Below are positions 4,965-53,796 of a stretch of DNA of 64,000 bases, one piece after another. The stretch lies in the NCBI GenBank assembly GCA_021286765.1, contig JAJTBS010000001.1, forward strand, positions 558,001 to 622,000. Direction: 5' to 3'. Every line of letters begins with the position of its first letter. The first letter of the stretch is position 1. Position numbers and translations under genes: made by a program. Origin of the DNA: Holophagaceae bacterium (GTDB lineage Bacteria > Acidobacteriota > Holophagae > Holophagales > Holophagaceae). Below the pieces are notes generated by a model that saw only the letters and a list, made by a program, of their open reading frames with translations, was not told the DNA's origin and did no database searches.

Positions 4965-7178
4965 ATGCGTTCGATGCGATGGGGTGGCGCTCTGGCGGCC
5001 CTGGTATTCCTGAGCCCCATGTGGGCCCAGGAACCCCGGCCCATGACCTTCATGGACGTGATGGAGATGCGCGGCCTGGGCGGCGGTTCCCTGTCGCCGG
5101 ATGGGGCCCGGGTGGTCTACACGGTGAGCCTGCCCCACTGGAAGTCGGGCAAGGCCTACACGGACATCTTCGTGGCCGATGCCGCCACGGGTGTCGCCCG
5201 GCAGATGACCTTCACCCGGGAAAAGAACGAATCAGGCCCCCAGTGGGCGCGGGACGGCCGGCGCTTCGCCTTCCTCAGCGACCGCGAGGGCAGTCAGCAG
5301 GTGTACCTCATGGCCGTGGAGGGTGGCGAAGCCCGGAAGCTCACGGAGGCCAAGGACGGGGTCCACGCCTTCGCCTTCAGCCGCGATGGCAAGTGGCTGG
5401 CCTTCAGCGCGGGCAAGCCCGAGGAGCGGCAGATGTCCCTCGTCGACCTGAGCTCGGAGGAACTGGCTGTCACCGCGCTGCCCAAGCACGCCACACCCAT
5501 CCGCGACTTCGCCTTCGCCGAGGATGGCAGCCGCCTCTTCTTCACCAGCCCTGACCGTCTGGACAAGGACGATGTGAAGCGCAAAGAGAAAAAGTTCGAT
5601 GTGCGGGTCGCGGACCTGGAACAGGCGCCGGTCCACCTCTGGTCCATGGACCTGAAGGACAAGGCGGAGAAGCGTTGGACGGAGGGTGCGAACTTCTCGG
5701 TGGCTGCTTTCCAGCTCTCGAAGGACGGCCGCTGGGCTTCGTATCGGGCCCTGCCAGCGGCCCGCCGCCTCGGCGACATCACCCAGGAAGAGGCCAGCCT
5801 GCACCTGCTGGACCTGGGCAGCGGCAAGGCGCATCCGGTCCTGGAGAAGTACGCCCGGTTCTCGGCCTTCTCTCCGGACGGCCAGTGGCTGGTCTACGCC
5901 GCCCCGGAGCGCTTCGAACGCCTGCGCAACGAAAAGCTGTGGGTGGTGCCCTCAGCCGGCGGCAGTGCCAAGAATCTGATGGCCGGCAAGGACATGAGCG
6001 TGTCCGCGGCCAGCTGGAGTGAAGACGCCAAGACCCTCTACTTCACGGAAGCCGTGGGGGTGGACCAGCACCTCTTCGCGCTGTCGGTGGTGGATGGGAC
6101 CATGACCCAGCTGACCAAGCAGGCCGGCGTCCTGGCAGGAAGCTACAACCCCGAAGCCAAAGCCTTCCTCCTGACCTACAGCCACCCCCGCAAGCCGCTA
6201 GATCTGTATGTGGCGAAGCCGCAGACCGTCAGCTCGGTCACGGCCTGGGTGAAGGTGTCCGACGCGAATCCCCAGGTGGCGAAGCTGGCCCTGGCCACCA
6301 CGGAGCCCGTGCGCTGGAAGGCCAAGGATGGCGTCGCGGTGGAGGGCCTCCTCATCAAGCCCCTGGGCTATGAAAAGGGCAGGCGGTATCCCCTCATCGT
6401 GCAGCTGCACGGCGGCCCCGCCGCGGCGGAGATGAACGGCTTCCAGGGCCGCTACGTGACCTATCCCCATGTCTATGCCACCGCCGGCTACGCCGTGCTG
6501 CAGCCCAACTACCGGGGCTCCACGAACTACGGGGAGGCCTTCACGCGCCAGATCGGCGGCAACTTCATGCGCCTGTCCTATGGCGACATCATCAGCGGCG
6601 TGGACCATCTCATCCAGGAGGGCATCGCCGATCCGGACCGGCTCGGCATGATGGGCTGGAGCGCCGGAGGGCACCTGTCCAGCTGGACCTTGACCCAGAC
6701 AGACCGTTTCAAGGCCATCAGCACCGGAGCTGGCGCCGTGAACTGGATCTCGATGTACGCCGAGAGTGACGTCCAGAGCGTCCGTGAGTTCTACCTGGGC
6801 GGCCGGCCCTACGATGCCTGGGACAACTTCGTGAATGAATCAGCCCTGAAATACATCAAGAACGCGAAGACGCCGACCCTCATCCATGTGGGCGAGGCGG
6901 ATCAGCGTGTGCCCAAGCCCCAGAGCGACGAGCTCTACATGGCCCTCAAGAAGCTTGGCGTGCCCGTGGAATACATCGTGTATCCCGGCATGCCCCACGG
7001 CCTGACTGAGCCGCGCTACCAGCTGGTGAAGATGGTCAGCGAGTTCAACTGGTTCGAGAAGTGGATCAAGGGGAAGAAGGACTGGTTCGACTGGAAGGCC
7101 CTGCTGGACACTCTGCCGGCAGATGCGGAGGCCAAGCCCGAAGCGTCCGCAGGCGCGGCGGCCCCGGGACGGAAATAA
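4965..7178 (+). CDS. Secreted S9 family peptidase (prolyl oligopeptidase / acylaminoacyl-peptidase type)
   Basis: 737 residues from the ATG at 4965, which follows GGAGG at the right spacing; upstream ATGs at 4929 and 4932 have no such site. A Sec signal peptide ends near SPMWAQ. Residues about 30-440 form the N-terminal WD40/TolB-like propeller (SPDGARVVYTV, FSRDGKWLAFS, FSPDGQWLVYA). The C-terminal alpha/beta-hydrolase domain has the nucleophile Ser near residue 566 in GWSAGGH, an Asp near 646 in GEADQRVP and a His near 678 in GMPHGL. The oxyanion segment LHGGPAA is present. It probably trims peptides in the periplasm. It stands alone, followed by a hairpin. The S9C subfamily is likely but not certain. 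Confidence 0.9.
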   Translation: MRSMRWGGALAALVFLSPMWAQEPRPMTFMDVMEMRGLGGGSLSPDGARVVYTVSLPHWKSGKAYTDIFVADAATGVARQMTFTREKNESGPQWARDGRRFAFLSDREGSQQVYLMAVEGGEARKLTEAKDGVHAFAFSRDGKWLAFSAGKPEERQMSLVDLSSEELAVTALPKHATPIRDFAFAEDGSRLFFTSPDRLDKDDVKRKEKKFDVRVADLEQAPVHLWSMDLKDKAEKRWTEGANFSVAAFQLSKDGRWASYRALPAARRLGDITQEEASLHLLDLGSGKAHPVLEKYARFSAFSPDGQWLVYAAPERFERLRNEKLWVVPSAGGSAKNLMAGKDMSVSAASWSEDAKTLYFTEAVGVDQHLFALSVVDGTMTQLTKQAGVLAGSYNPEAKAFLLTYSHPRKPLDLYVAKPQTVSSVTAWVKVSDANPQVAKLALATTEPVRWKAKDGVAVEGLLIKPLGYEKGRRYPLIVQLHGGPAAAEMNGFQGRYVTYPHVYATAGYAVLQPNYRGSTNYGEAFTRQIGGNFMRLSYGDIISGVDHLIQEGIADPDRLGMMGWSAGGHLSSWTLTQTDRFKAISTGAGAVNWISMYAESDVQSVREFYLGGRPYDAWDNFVNESALKYIKNAKTPTLIHVGEADQRVPKPQSDELYMALKKLGVPVEYIVYPGMPHGLTEPRYQLVKMVSEFNWFEKWIKGKKDWFDWKALLDTLPADAEAKPEASAGAAAPGRK

Positions 7179-48078: not shown

Positions 48079-48780
48079 TTGCTGCTGCTGTTTCCCGAGG
48101 ATCTGGTCAGGCCGGGTCTCGCGCGCCTGAGCGGGCGCCGGCTGGAGCATGTGCGCGAGGTGCACCGCGCCGAAGTCGGCGATGACCTGGCCGTGGGCCT
48201 GCTGGGTGGCCCCATGGGCCAGGGCCGGGTGCTGCGCCTGGAGGAGGGGGTCCTGGAGCTGGACCTGAGCCTGGATCAGGCCCCGCCCCCGAAACTGCCG
48301 CTGACCCTGGTCCTCGCGGTGCCCCGCCCGAAGGTGCTCAACCGCGTGGTGGCGGCCGCCGCCAGCCTCGGCGTGGCCCATCTCGTGCTGCTCAACGCCT
48401 GGAAGGTGGAAAAGGCCTACTGGGCCAGCCCGAGGATGAAGCCCGAGAGCCTGCGCGAGCAGCTGCTCCTGGGCCTGGAGCAGGCCAAGGACACCGTGCT
48501 TCCCGAAGTGACGCTGGCGCGGCTGTTCCGGCCCTTCGTGGAAGATGAACTGCCGGGCCTGGTGGCAGGGGGTACGGGCCTGCTGGCCCATCCCGGCACC
48601 GGGGGGACCGCGCCCAGGGTTCCAGCCGCCCCCATCACCCTGGCCATCGGCCCCGAAGGCGGCTGGATCGACGCCGAGGTGCAGAGCCTGCTGCAGGCGG
48701 GCCTGCAGCCCCTGGATCTGGGGCCCCGCATCCTGCGCACCGAGACCGCCCTCGCGGCGTTGGTGGGAAGGTTGTTCTAG
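48079..48780 (+). CDS. rsmE: 16S rRNA (uracil-1498-N3)-methyltransferase
   Basis: 233 residues from a TTG at 48079; no better start exists at the expected place. The PUA-like N-terminal part (HVREVHRAEVGDDLAVG) is followed by the SPOUT methyltransferase domain with AVPRPKVLNRVVAAAASLGV, IAIGPEGGW-like LAIGPEGGWIDAE and the knot LGPRILRTETALAAL. It methylates N3 of U1498 in 16S rRNA using S-adenosylmethionine. Its 3' end overlaps the convergent ilvA by four bases. Confidence 0.92.
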   Translation: MLLLFPEDLVRPGLARLSGRRLEHVREVHRAEVGDDLAVGLLGGPMGQGRVLRLEEGVLELDLSLDQAPPPKLPLTLVLAVPRPKVLNRVVAAAASLGVAHLVLLNAWKVEKAYWASPRMKPESLREQLLLGLEQAKDTVLPEVTLARLFRPFVEDELPGLVAGGTGLLAHPGTGGTAPRVPAAPITLAIGPEGGWIDAEVQSLLQAGLQPLDLGPRILRTETALAALVGRLF

Positions 48781-50306
48781 GCGAGGAACAAGCGGTAGGC
48801 CGGGTTGTCGGCTTCGTCCACGAAGCGGTAGCCCAGGCCGTCCAGGAAGCCCTGGAAGGCCGCCTGATCTTCAGGCGGCACCTGGATGCCCGCCAGCACC
48901 CGGCCATAATCCGCGCCGTGGTTGCGGTAGTGGAAGAGGGAGATGTTCCAGCCGCGGTTCATGCGCTCCAGGAAGCGGAGCAGGGCCCCTGGACGCTCCG
49001 GGAACTCGAACCGGTAGATCCGCTCATGGGCCGCGCCGGGCGCCCGTCCGCCCACCAGGTGGCGCACGTGGAGCTTGGCCATCTCGTTGTCGCTGAGGTC
49101 CTGGGCCTCCAGTCCCTCGGCCCGCAGGCGCGCCAGGAGGGGTCCCAGCTCCGAGCGGTCCGCCATCTGCAGGCCCACGAAGATGTGCGCCTGCTGGAGA
49201 TCCGCGAGCCGGTAGTTGAACTCCGTGATGGACCGTTGGCCGATGAGCTCGCAGAAGGCCTTGAAGCTGCCGGGCCGCTCCGGGATGGTGACGGCGAGGA
49301 TGGCTTCGCGCCGCTCGCCCAGCTCGGCCCGCTCCGCCACGAAGCGCAGGCGGTCGAAGTTGGCGTTGGCCCCCGAGAGGATGGCCACCAGATTGCCGGT
49401 CGCGGCGCCCGGCGCCTGACGGGCAGCCCAGGCCTTCAAGCCCGCCACGGCCAGGGCCCCGGCGGGCTCCAGCACGGAGCGCGTCTCCTCGAACACATCC
49501 TTGATGGCAGCGCAGAGCTCATCCGTGTTCACCAGCACGACCTCGTCCACGAACTGGCGGCAGAGGTCGAAGGTGAGCTCGCCCACCTGGCTGACAGCCA
49601 CGCCGTCGGCGAAGAGCCCCACGCGCTCCAGGCGCACCCGGTGGCCCGCTGCCAGGGACTGGCACATGGCGTCTGCATCCACCGGCTCCACGCCGATGAT
49701 GCGGATGCCCGGCTGGAGGCGCTTAAGGTAGGCCGCGATCCCCGCGATGAGGCCGCCGCCCCCCACGGGCACGAAGACCGCCCCCATGCCCCGGGGCATC
49801 TGGCGCAGCAGCTCCAGGCCGATGGTGCCCTGGCCGGCGATGACGTCGAGGTCGTCGTAGGGGTGGATGTAGACCCGGCCCTCCGAGTGGGCCAGTGCCT
49901 GGGAGTGGGCGTAGGCCTCCTCGAAGGAATCGCCGTGCAGGACCACCTGGGCCTCCAGGGTGCGCACCGCGTCCACCTTGATGGCGGGCGTGGTGACGGG
50001 CATGACGATCACCGCGTCGCAGCCCAGCTCCCGTGCCGCCAGGGCCACCCCCTGGGCATGGTTGCCCGCCGAGGCGGCGATGACGCCGCGTGCGCGGGCC
50101 CCGGGATCGAGGTGGGCCAGCTTGTTGTAGGCGCCCCGCAGCTTGAAGGAGAAGACCGGCTGCAGGTCCTCCCGCTTCAGCCACACGGGGCTGCCGACGC
50201 GGCGCGACAGCTTCGGGGCCGCCTCCAGGGGCGACTCGATGGCCACGTCGTAGACCAGGGCCGTGAGGATGCGTTCGAGCAGGTCGCGGGAAGGGAGGGT
50301 GCTCAA
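48777..50306 (-). CDS. ilvA: Threonine deaminase, biosynthetic long form
   Basis: 509 residues from a TTG at 50306 with GGAG six bases ahead. It makes 2-oxobutanoate from threonine for isoleucine synthesis. The PLP-binding Lys is in VFSFKLRGAYNKL, with SAGNHAQGVALAA and the Gly-rich phosphate loop VPVGGGGLIAGIA. The C-terminal 170 residues form two ACT-like regulatory modules (IPERPGSFKAFCELIG, FEFPERPGALLRFLERM), so it is the Ile/Val-regulated form and not the short catabolic type. A leader peptide and terminator precede it and point to attenuation control. The 3' end overlaps rsmE on the other strand. Confidence 0.95.
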   Translation of the reverse strand: MSTLPSRDLLERILTALVYDVAIESPLEAAPKLSRRVGSPVWLKREDLQPVFSFKLRGAYNKLAHLDPGARARGVIAASAGNHAQGVALAARELGCDAVIVMPVTTPAIKVDAVRTLEAQVVLHGDSFEEAYAHSQALAHSEGRVYIHPYDDLDVIAGQGTIGLELLRQMPRGMGAVFVPVGGGGLIAGIAAYLKRLQPGIRIIGVEPVDADAMCQSLAAGHRVRLERVGLFADGVAVSQVGELTFDLCRQFVDEVVLVNTDELCAAIKDVFEETRSVLEPAGALAVAGLKAWAARQAPGAATGNLVAILSGANANFDRLRFVAERAELGERREAILAVTIPERPGSFKAFCELIGQRSITEFNYRLADLQQAHIFVGLQMADRSELGPLLARLRAEGLEAQDLSDNEMAKLHVRHLVGGRAPGAAHERIYRFEFPERPGALLRFLERMNRGWNISLFHYRNHGADYGRVLAGIQVPPEDQAAFQGFLDGLGYRFVDEADNPAYRLFLA

Positions 50307-50320
50307 GGTGGACTCCGCCT

Positions 50321-50355
50321 AAAGAAGAACCCCCCGACCTGGCGGTGCGGGGGGC
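50321..50355 (-). terminator. Attenuator terminator upstream of ilvA
   Basis: On the - strand: a C6-G / C-G6 stem with an 11-nt loop followed by TTCTTCTTT, ending only about 15 bases before the ilvA start codon. It is an intrinsic terminator placed between a leader ORF and the structural gene. The 5' arm (GCCCCC) can alternatively pair with GGGGGC at 50383-50388 near the end of the leader ORF, giving an antiterminator. Confidence 0.78.
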
Positions 50356-50378
50356 TTGGAATCGGAATGGGATCCGGC

Positions 50379-50444
50379 CTATGCCCCCTCGCGCGAAATC
50401 ATCGCGATGGCGGCGTGAATGCTGATGTGGACGGAAGGTGTCAT
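50379..50444 (-). CDS. Leader peptide of the ilvA attenuator (21 aa)
   Basis: A 21-codon ORF starting MTPSVHISIH and ending MISREGA-stop. Four Ile codons (7, 9, 13 and 16) and one Val fall in ten residues, and the stop lies two bases before the GGGGGC that can pair with the terminator's 5' arm. A ribosome reaching the stop would cover that segment and let the terminator form; stalling at Ile codons would leave it free to make the antiterminator. In-frame GTGs at 50474 and 50477 would lengthen the peptide by 10-11 residues and add Leu, Ile and Val codons. The start codon and a ribosome site are not certain; the arrangement is typical of branched-chain amino acid leaders. Confidence 0.66.
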   Translation of the reverse strand: MTPSVHISIHAAIAMISREGA

Positions 50445-50525
50445 GGCGGCAACTGGGATCAGCCAAGCTAGCACCACCCCCCGGGCCGCACAAGGCTGGG
50501 GCGAACGGTGGGGCGGGCCGCAGGC

Positions 50526-50577: not shown

Positions 50578-53500
50578 ATGCCGAGCTTCCGCGTTTCCGC
50601 CCTTGCGCTCGTGGCCTTCGCCCTGGTGGCCCAGGACCGCGTCCCCCGCTTTGTCAGCTCGCCGGATGTGAACGGCGACCGCGTGGTGTTCACCTGGGAG
50701 GACGACCTCTGGCTCGGCTCCCTCAAGGGCGGCCCGGCCCGGCGCCTCAGCACCCACCCCGGCGTGGAGACCGCCGCCCGCTTCAGCCCCGACGGCAAGT
50801 GGATCGCCTTCACGGGGCAGTACGACGGAGGAAACCAGGTCTATGTGATGCCCGCCGGGGGTGGCACGCCGAAGCGCCTCACCTGGGGCGGCGGCGCCAC
50901 CGTGCAGGGCTGGACGGCCGACGGCAAGCAGGTGCTCTTCAAGACGGTGGCGGACTTCGACCGCCGGCCCGTGGAGCGCTTCTTCACCGTGGACCTCGAG
51001 GGTCACCAGCCCGAGGCCCTGCCGGTCCCGCGCGGCACCGCGGGCACGCTGTCGCCCGACGGCCAGCGCTTCGCCTACAACGCCAAAGGGCGGGCCGAAT
51101 ACTACTGGAAGCGCTACAAGGGCGGCGACCACCCGGACCTGTGGCTGGCGGATCTGAAAAGCGGCCGCTTCGAGAAGCTGACCGACTTCGTGGGCCGTAA
51201 CGGCGCCCCCATCTGGGCCGGCGGCAAGGTGATCTTTGAATCGGATCGTGGCACCACCGGCATCACCAACCTCTACGCGGTGGACCCGGGCACCAAGGCC
51301 GTGGAGCAGCTGACGGACCTCAAGGCCTTCGACGCCCAGCAGCCCAGCACCGATGGCCGCACGGTGGTCTTCTTGCAGGGCGGCCATCTGCAGGCCCTGG
51401 ACCTGGCCACCAAGATGGTGCGCCCCGTGCCGGTGACCACCAGCAGCGATGGCTGGAAAACCTCACCCCGGCCCGTGAACCCCAAGGACTGGATCCAGGC
51501 CATGAGCCTCGCGGCGGGGCAGGCCGTGTTCGAGGCCCGGGGCGAGGTGTTCCTCCTGCCCACGGACGCCACCAAGCCCGCCCTGAACCTCACGAAGACC
51601 CCCGGCGTGCGCGAGCGCTTCCCCCGCCTGTCGCCGGATGGCAAGCGCGTGGCCTATTTCAGTGATGCCAGCGGCGACTACGACCTCTACGTGCAGGCTG
51701 TGGATGGTGCCGCGGAGCGCATCCCCACGGGCCTGAAGACCGCCCTCTACCACCTGGAGTGGAGCCCGGACGGCACCAAAGTCCTCTTCGGCGACAAGAG
51801 CTTCGCCCTCTACGTCATGGACGTGGCCACGAAGAAGCTCACCAAGGTGGACGAATCCCACGAGCTGAAGAACGACCAGTTCACCTGGGAGGTGAGCGAC
51901 TATGCCTGGGCGCCGGACTCCCAGTGGGTGGCCTACAGCTTCGTGGAGGCCAACCGGAACAGCCGCATCCACCTCTTCAACCTCGCCACGAAGCAGAAGC
52001 TGACCCTGACGGACGGCTTCTTCGACTGCCTGAACCCCCGCTTCGATCTGGATGGCAGCACCCTCTACTTCCTTAGCTACAGCAACTTCCACACGCGCCT
52101 CGACCCCAGCCAGGACAACCACATCCAGTCCGCGCCGGTGCAGGTCATGGCCGTGACGCTGAAGGCGGGTGAGGAGAAGGGGGCGTCCTCCTCGGCCTCC
52201 GGCAGCGCCTTCCGCATCGACACGGCTGGGCTGGCGGAGCGCATCGCGCCCCTGCCCGTGAAACCCGGGAACCTGTTCCACCTCAAGGCGGGCCGAGGAA
52301 TGGTGGGCTGGGACGAGGTCGAGGGCTGGGATGATAGCGTGGTGGAGGAGCTCTACGGGCCCCGCGGCGCGGAGAAGTGGAAGCTGCACCTCTATGATCC
52401 TGCGGCCAAGAAGGACAAGGAGGCCGTGCTGGCGGAGCCGGTGAGCGACTGGGCCTTCGACGCCGAGGGCCGGCGGCTCCTCATCCGAAAGGGACCGAAC
52501 TTCCACACCGGCGAGGCTGCCGCCGTGTTCGCCGCCAAGGCCCTGCCCGAGAAGCTGGACCTGGAACGCATGACTTTGACGGTGGACCCGCGTGCCGAAT
52601 GGAAGCAGATCTTCGAGGACACCTGGCGCTGGTACCGGGACTTCTTCTATGACAAGGACATGAACGGGAACGACTGGAACGCCATCGGCGCCAAGTTCCG
52701 CTCGCTCGTGCCGGAGCTGAACTCCCGCCAGGAACTGAACTGGCTGCTGAGCCAGATGGTGGGCGAACTGAGCGCCAGCCACACCTATGTGGGCGGCGGC
52801 GATGCCGGCCCGGGCCGTCCCCTGCCGAACCCGGTCTACCCCGGCCTGCTGGGCGCGGACTTCACGGCGGAGCAGGGCGTCTACCGGTTCGCCAAGGTCT
52901 TTGGCCCCACGGCCTACGCCCGGGACCTCAAGGCTCCTTTGGCGGACCCCGCGCCCAAGGTGAAGGAGGGCGAGTACCTCCTGGCCGTCGATGGCCGGCC
53001 CCTGCGCGCCCCCGAGGCCATCCAGGCCCGGCTGCAGGTCATCAGGGGGCAGAAGGTGACGCTCACGGTGAACAGCAAGCCCACCATGGACGGCGCCCGC
53101 ACCATCGAAGTCGAGCCCGTGCCCAACGACTGGGACCTGCGCTACCACCGCTGGGTCGCCGGCAACATCGAGGCCGTGGACAAGGCTTCCAACGGCCAGC
53201 TGGGCTACATGCACATCACGGCCATGGGCGACCAGAACATTGGCCAGTTCGACAAGTACTGGCGCGCCTTCCGCTACAAGAAGGGCATCGTCATCGATGT
53301 GCGCGGCAACGGCGGCGGCTGGACTGAGTATTTCCTGATCGACAAGCTGGAGCGCAAGCAGGTCGGCTTCAACGTGCTGCGGGGCATGGCGCCCTTCCGC
53401 TACCCCAACACCGCCTCGGACGGCCGCTACGTCTTCCTCACCAACGAGCAGAACGGCAGCGATGGCGAGGCCTTCCTCATGCACGTGAAGGCCCGCAACC

Positions 53501-53796
53501 TGGGCACCATCGTGGGGGTGCCCAGCTGGGGCGGTCTGGTGGGCATCATCAACACCCAGTTCACCCTGGACGGTGGCACCGTGGAGCAGAGCAACAATGG
53601 CTTCTACGGCCGCGAAGGCCAGTGGTGGGTGGAGAACCATGGCGCCGACCCGGACATCACCGTGGAGAACGACCCCGCCAGCCTCATGCAGGGCCGCGAT
53701 CCGCAGCTGGAGACGGGCATCGCCACCCTCCTCAGGCAGCTGAAGGAGAACCCCACGCCGGCCTTCCCGCCGGTGCCCGCCTACCCCAAGCGGTGA
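50578..53796 (+). CDS. Tricorn-like S41 protease, exported
   Basis: 1072 residues from the ATG at 50578 (GGAG six bases ahead), with a signal peptide ending near LVAQ. Order: two beta-propeller regions (about 20-330 and 340-660, with FSPDGKWIAFTG, LSPDGKRVAYFSD, WSPDGTKVLFGD), a linker, a C1 helical domain, a PDZ domain (LGADFTAEQGVYRF, KEGEYLLAVDGRPL) and the S41 catalytic domain. The catalytic Ser is in NGSDGEAF, the His in LSASHTYVGG, and the stabilising GNGGGWTEY is present. It matches the tricorn-core layout, in which the propellers gate peptide entry. Divergent from ilvA. It probably degrades peptides in the periplasm. Confidence 0.92.
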   Translation: MPSFRVSALALVAFALVAQDRVPRFVSSPDVNGDRVVFTWEDDLWLGSLKGGPARRLSTHPGVETAARFSPDGKWIAFTGQYDGGNQVYVMPAGGGTPKRLTWGGGATVQGWTADGKQVLFKTVADFDRRPVERFFTVDLEGHQPEALPVPRGTAGTLSPDGQRFAYNAKGRAEYYWKRYKGGDHPDLWLADLKSGRFEKLTDFVGRNGAPIWAGGKVIFESDRGTTGITNLYAVDPGTKAVEQLTDLKAFDAQQPSTDGRTVVFLQGGHLQALDLATKMVRPVPVTTSSDGWKTSPRPVNPKDWIQAMSLAAGQAVFEARGEVFLLPTDATKPALNLTKTPGVRERFPRLSPDGKRVAYFSDASGDYDLYVQAVDGAAERIPTGLKTALYHLEWSPDGTKVLFGDKSFALYVMDVATKKLTKVDESHELKNDQFTWEVSDYAWAPDSQWVAYSFVEANRNSRIHLFNLATKQKLTLTDGFFDCLNPRFDLDGSTLYFLSYSNFHTRLDPSQDNHIQSAPVQVMAVTLKAGEEKGASSSASGSAFRIDTAGLAERIAPLPVKPGNLFHLKAGRGMVGWDEVEGWDDSVVEELYGPRGAEKWKLHLYDPAAKKDKEAVLAEPVSDWAFDAEGRRLLIRKGPNFHTGEAAAVFAAKALPEKLDLERMTLTVDPRAEWKQIFEDTWRWYRDFFYDKDMNGNDWNAIGAKFRSLVPELNSRQELNWLLSQMVGELSASHTYVGGGDAGPGRPLPNPVYPGLLGADFTAEQGVYRFAKVFGPTAYARDLKAPLADPAPKVKEGEYLLAVDGRPLRAPEAIQARLQVIRGQKVTLTVNSKPTMDGARTIEVEPVPNDWDLRYHRWVAGNIEAVDKASNGQLGYMHITAMGDQNIGQFDKYWRAFRYKKGIVIDVRGNGGGWTEYFLIDKLERKQVGFNVLRGMAPFRYPNTASDGRYVFLTNEQNGSDGEAFLMHVKARNLGTIVGVPSWGGLVGIINTQFTLDGGTVEQSNNGFYGREGQWWVENHGADPDITVENDPASLMQGRDPQLETGIATLLRQLKENPTPAFPPVPAYPKR

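Follow-up and report, generated by a model that had tools for sequence, protein, structure and literature searches.

A probable isoleucine-responsive transcription attenuator upstream of ilvA in Geothrix and related Holophagaceae

The window analyzed here is a 64,000-nucleotide stretch of a Holophagaceae genome (GenBank assembly GCA_021286765.1, contig JAJTBS010000001.1, positions 558,001 to 622,000; coordinates below are positions within the window), which carries on its minus strand an ilvA gene preceded by a short open reading frame (ORF) rich in isoleucine codons. We conclude with high confidence that this leader region is an isoleucine-specific, ribosome-mediated transcription attenuator, in which the leader ORF and a switchable hairpin very probably shut ilvA off when isoleucine is plentiful. 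The region combines a conserved ORF carrying codons for the amino acid that the pathway produces, a terminator located between leader and gene, and an antiterminator that includes the 5' arm of the terminator, and in constrained folding it is the position of the ribosome that decides whether the 5' strand of the antiterminator is accessible. An initial annotation of the region had proposed an isoleucine-type translational attenuator; the attenuator itself is upheld, but not its translational character, since the ilvA Shine-Dalgarno sequence lies outside the hairpin.

Results

Organization of the ilvA leader region

The ilvA gene (48777..50306, minus strand) begins with a TTG codon at 50306, and its product matches TIGR01124 (801 bits, cut-off 411), PF00291 and two copies of PF00585. 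These family profiles identify a biosynthetic threonine ammonia-lyase with two regulatory domains at its C-terminus; ilvA thus encodes the first committed step of isoleucine synthesis. Upstream, on the same strand, an ORF that runs from ATG to TAG (50379..50444) encodes a 21-residue leader peptide, MTPSVHISIHAAIAMISREGA, with isoleucines at residues 7, 9, 13 and 16, the four in ten residues noticed in the initial annotation. The segment GGGGGC (segment 2; 50383..50388, minus strand), the putative 5' strand of the antiterminator, is located just before the leader stop codon, and would therefore be covered by a ribosome waiting there.

The leader ORF is followed by the hairpin GCCCCCCGCACCGCCAGGTCGGGGGGT and the U-tract TTCTTCTTT, which together span 50355-50321 on the minus strand, and then by ilvA, an arrangement that had been correctly described before. 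The hairpin can be written GCCCCCCG-C-ACC/GCCA/GGT-CGGGGGG (50355-50330) and has a predicted ΔG of -21.7 kcal/mol. Folding and the pairing scan described below identify its 5' arm, GCCCCCCGCACC (segment 3; 50344..50355), as also being the 3' strand of the antiterminator, and folding assigns GGTCGGGGGG (segment 4; 50330..50339) to its 3' arm. The U-tract of this predicted intrinsic terminator (50321..50329) is kept in relatives as TTCTTCTTT or TTTTTCGT, and follows hairpins whose ΔG values range from approximately -15 to -30. The TTG start of ilvA lies 14 bases past the U-tract, and its Shine-Dalgarno sequence GGAG (50313..50316, minus strand) is outside the hairpin, with GGAG or AGGAG at the same place in relatives. 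The 137-nt stretch from 50443 to 50307 folds at -56.7 kcal/mol, compared to -44.9 +/- 3.5 for dinucleotide shuffles (z -3.4), and is more stable than all of the 200 shuffles generated.

A promoter is predicted at 50465..50493 on the minus strand (TTGTGC-17 nt-TAGCTT, with the extended -10 TGcTAGcTT). This is the candidate already put forward in the initial annotation, and its elements CTTGTG and TGNTA(G/A)NTTG are kept in 12/12 aligned relatives. If transcription begins at the predicted start, the 5' untranslated region of the leader would measure only approximately 14 nt.

Conservation of the leader in Holophagaceae

Orthologous ilvA upstream regions were taken from the family and class of the host genome, and conservation was counted over 36 ilvA genes that form one Holophagaceae clade (support 100/100). 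An Ile-rich leader is present in 30 of these, nearly always followed by a terminator and then by ilvA. Conservation in relatives had been set beforehand as the test by which the proposal could be refuted, and the leader Ile codons, the G-rich segment close to the stop and the terminator all withstood it. Throughout Geothrix, these three elements are kept together with the reading frame, the stop codon and the promoter; examples are MTPSARLIPAAIAIISREGA, MSHAGSAIISAAIAIISSREGA, MFRRSCSISIIRIPGGG and MPATSPIIPFISIPQGG, and the cultured genus is represented among the carriers by Geothrix fermentans. Other genera of the family also have leader and terminator, with altered sequence, as in MPRSSHPPIQGIISPSGGARARA (G052), MSFVLRPHIAIAIIIRSAGGLPTR (G071) and MTVLPPAAASARQGRTIRIRIPG (G065).

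Each of the 30 leaders carries 2-6 Ile codons while its other residues vary freely, and Ile is the commonest leader residue (20.1%, versus 4.9% in IlvA itself). Insertions and deletions are codon-sized and in frame within the leader ORF, and measure 1-2 nt in the spacer just after it, a codon-level conservation from which we infer that the leader is translated. The choice of Ile codons differs as well: the ATT:ATC ratio is 60:52 in the leaders versus 35:728 in the ilvA coding sequence, so that ATT accounts for half of the Ile codons in the former and for 5% in the latter, although the Fisher value for this comparison is not a true probability, as the sequences are related. Enrichment of the rare ATT codon may slow decoding and sharpen sensing, or may only reduce structure.

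Insertions were observed at two of the loci, and what may be the trace of one at a third. In G036 (L017), roughly 300 bp inserted in the terminator loop split the two arms and leave the leader intact; in G006 (L006), terminator and ilvA are separated by some 270 bp of inserted sequence bounded by inverted ends (AGAGGTCATAACAAAACCC ... GGGTTTTGTTATGACCTCT), and in G013 (L013) a single end-like stretch at the same place is perhaps a scar.

Antiterminator pairing and the position of the ribosome

The partner of the terminator 5' arm was sought by moving a 12-nt window along 29 ilvA leaders and recording the best pairing in each. In most leaders this partner begins at positions -13 to -7 relative to the stop; here, and in most Geothrix, it begins at -11 and corresponds to segment 2. 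The best partner also overlaps or abuts the stop codon in most of the leaders that precede ilvD or ilvB. In L024, L027, L028 and L030 both strands of the antiterminator have changed, GGGTGGC/GCCACCC replacing GGGGGC/GCCCCC, and within the terminator stem an inner A-U pair has become G-C in L019, while two pairs are swapped in L036.

The predicted transcript of the window was folded with a 30-nt ribosome footprint blocked. Without a ribosome, GGGGGC pairs within the leader and the terminator is formed; when a ribosome occupies any of the Ile codons, the nascent RNA folds into the antiterminator; and when it occupies the stop codon, the antiterminator cannot form and only the terminator does. 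These computed folds bear out the earlier proposals that GGGGGC pairs with the 5' arm of the terminator, its conserved position near the stop adding to the case, and that a ribosome at the leader stop masks it.

The resulting model would operate as follows. RNA polymerase would begin approximately 14 nt upstream of the leader ATG, with a ribosome following and translating the 21-residue leader. When charged tRNA-Ile is scarce, the ribosome would wait at the Ile codons, so that GGGGGC could pair with GCCCCC as soon as the latter is transcribed. This pairing would block the terminator and allow the polymerase to read on into ilvA. A ribosome that reaches the stop codon would cover GGGGGC, so that only the terminator could form, and if the leader were untranslated, GGGGGC would fold back onto other parts of the leader, the terminator likewise forming.

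Several observations weigh against this model. In this genome the -10 element is weak and the U-tract is broken by a C, which is why generic promoter and terminator scans of the window reported neither the leader promoter nor the leader terminator; in addition, no Shine-Dalgarno sequence precedes the leader ATG. In the partner scan, L020, L027 and L028 have a competing partner further upstream, with the stop-proximal one in second place, the best partner lies at -26 and -20 in L031 and L032, respectively, L036 has no clear partner at all, and the stop-proximal partner is ahead only narrowly in L024 and L030; under a strict definition of the arm, all of these leaders lack a clear partner at the stop codon. 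Pairing between segments 2 and 3 is not clearly better than with a shuffled segment 2 in most single genomes, a test that is uninformative for most of them because the arms are low-complexity runs of G and C, and since most pairs never vary, the covariation support rests on few lineages. Lastly, when the complete transcript is folded at equilibrium, the terminator is usually favored even when a ribosome is stalled. The decision must therefore be kinetic, as it is in models of comparable attenuators (PMC1183508).

Genomic context and host

The gene upstream of ilvA, at 50578-53796 on the plus strand, encodes a tricorn-like protease and is divergent, while the downstream gene, at 48079-48780 on the plus strand, encodes an RNA methyltransferase (PF04452) and is convergent. 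As it is flanked in this manner, ilvA is monocistronic. The initial annotation had contrasted this lone gene with an ilv operon, which is accurate for ilvA, yet a separate multi-amino-acid leader precedes the ilvDBN operon in this genome (see below). The closest named relatives of the IlvA protein are from Geothrix (G. limicola, G. fermentans, G. oryzisoli and others; 85-90% identity), and we thus assign the window to this genus of soil and sediment acidobacteria, in agreement with the phylum suspected from the sequence.

Other amino-acid leaders in Geothrix

A leader with Ile, Val and Leu codons, followed by a terminator, precedes ilvDBN (or ilvB, where this gene comes first) in 12/12 loci, including that of the host genome, where it lies at approximately position 5100-5300 of the locus (L164; G000:C4:396000-403100). 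These leaders (L164, L165-L173, L138 and L155) are of two sequence types. We do not claim homology between the ilvA and ilvD leaders, whose alignment scores are only marginally above those of dinucleotide shuffles. Likewise, trpE is preceded in 15/15 Geothrix genomes (L178-L192; host genome L180) by a Trp-rich leader ending in AWWWRTGLDGSLCEA and by a terminator. The leader lies approximately 100-180 bases upstream of the trpE match, and its proposed antiterminator changes on both sides, occurring as GGGCTC/GAGCCC and as GGGCTT/AAGCCC. No leaders were found in Geothrix before leuA, hisG or the homoserine dehydrogenase gene, nor before cimA in the two genomes with this gene.

Probable gain and loss of the ilvA attenuator

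Outside the clade, the closest IlvA proteins are betaproteobacterial, with up to 72% identity, while other Holophagae have distant IlvA proteins located elsewhere in the tree. This distribution suggests that the gene is shared with betaproteobacteria by lateral transfer, and the direction of the exchange can only be surmised. No comparable leader and terminator were found at the betaproteobacterial ilvA loci examined, nor before ilvA of other Holophagae. On the tree, the presence or absence of the leader requires three changes, which fit one gain and two losses.

In G030 (L016) and G044 (L022) the ilvA attenuator has been lost, apparently by one shared deletion that left a remnant of the terminator tail. 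Among 47 Geothrix genomes, only these two carry a citramalate synthase over the family cut-off (L124, L125), an enzyme that provides a threonine-independent route to isoleucine; as the two genomes appear to reflect one event, the association counts once. One scenario is that Holophagaceae built classical attenuators of their own (Ile for ilvA, Ile/Val/Leu for ilvDBN and Trp for trpE), that the ilvA one arose on a gene exchanged laterally with betaproteobacteria, where ilvA has no such leader, and that it was given up in the lineage acquiring citramalate synthase; in our judgement this scenario is evenly balanced between right and wrong.

In certain Geothrix genomes (G014, G016, G022-G026, G031, G032 and G035) neither a clade-type ilvA nor an ilvB over the cut-off is present, and the four tested for homoserine dehydrogenase, namely G014, G016, G024 and G032, lack this enzyme as well. 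In G010, G011, G020, G021, G029 and G034, ilvB is present, with neither a clade-type ilvA nor a citramalate synthase over the cut-off. Auxotrophy, or another route, is possible in Geothrix without a clade-type ilvA, and some of the genomes are incomplete.

Discussion

A translated leader upstream of ilvA would also fit a translational attenuator, in which a hairpin or alternative fold hides the ribosome-binding site of ilvA until leader translation frees it, and in the single-sequence fold of 50443-50307 the 5' end of the leader indeed pairs with the ilvA Shine-Dalgarno region. This long-range pairing, however, uses leader positions that are not conserved, whereas the U-tract after the hairpin is conserved and GGAG, located approximately 13 nt past the last hairpin base, stays outside the hairpin in aligned relatives. 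Sequestration of the Shine-Dalgarno sequence, the defining property of translational attenuators, is thus not what we observe, and we consider such a mechanism highly unlikely. Premature terminators preceding biosynthetic genes are often of the T-box, riboswitch or protein-dependent kind, in which case the ORF would be incidental. Here, however, the leader RNA is predicted to measure only approximately 140 nt and is taken up by ORF and terminator. Rfam at gathering score gave no match in the window. With thresholds relaxed, the other attenuators gave none, and the ilvA region gave just two hits, both sub-threshold and to unrelated families; regulation of this kind has, in our estimation, a minute probability.

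The region could also consist of an ordinary terminator and a short ORF whose richness in Ile is accidental, or which codes for a small peptide with a function of its own. Short ORFs are numerous, and the Ile content of this single leader is only modestly unlikely (binomial P ~0.01), which is not extreme by itself. Against this modest figure stands the conservation of the leader in 30/36 members of the clade, strong evidence that it did not arise by chance; moreover, the Ile codons, the position of the stop and the G-rich segment next to it are kept while other residues change. There is also no minus-strand gene upstream of ilvA that would need a terminator and to which this one could belong. 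Finally, Ile is the amino acid that fits the pathway, and Geothrix also has leaders with Trp codons before trpE and with Val/Leu/Ile codons before ilvDBN. We regard an ordinary terminator with an unrelated ORF as extremely improbable.

An isoleucine-specific transcription attenuator would be of a classical, known kind, well conserved in the family and little documented in the phylum. In E. coli, ilvGMEDA (with its leader ilvL) and ilvBN are controlled by leader attenuators. Both are listed in PMC1183508, and the Geothrix ilvA region resembles them in design by its leader peptide with codons for the pathway product and its alternative antiterminator and terminator. In E. coli, however, ilvA belongs to a five-gene operon with a multivalent Ile/Val/Leu leader, whereas in Geothrix it stands alone behind a leader dominated by Ile. 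The ilvB and ilvBNC leaders of Actinobacteria (PMC1262725) are similar in that a short leader with Ile/Val/Leu codons precedes a terminator, an antiterminator and one more hairpin, and the three-hairpin model of C. glutamicum (PMC11857589) includes a very short leader 5' untranslated region, as predicted here for ilvA; the gene is ilvB and the valence Val/Leu/Ile, and these systems are closer to the Geothrix ilvDBN leader than to that of ilvA. Premature terminators computed across bacteria (PMC2965389) likewise lie between promoter and gene, but for Geothrix ilvA an input (Ile) and a mechanism can be assigned. In that work, almost none of the attenuators predicted in Acidobacteria has an assigned function.

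Most of what is known of leader-peptide attenuation comes from Proteobacteria and Actinobacteria. The leaders described here add three conserved cases to which a function can be assigned, all from a single cultured genus, and their control codons match the branch of the pathway: Ile for ilvA, the three branched-chain amino acids for ilvDBN and Trp for trpE. The ilvA leader would, in addition, illustrate how a single clade of a gene family can acquire an attenuator and subsequently lose it.
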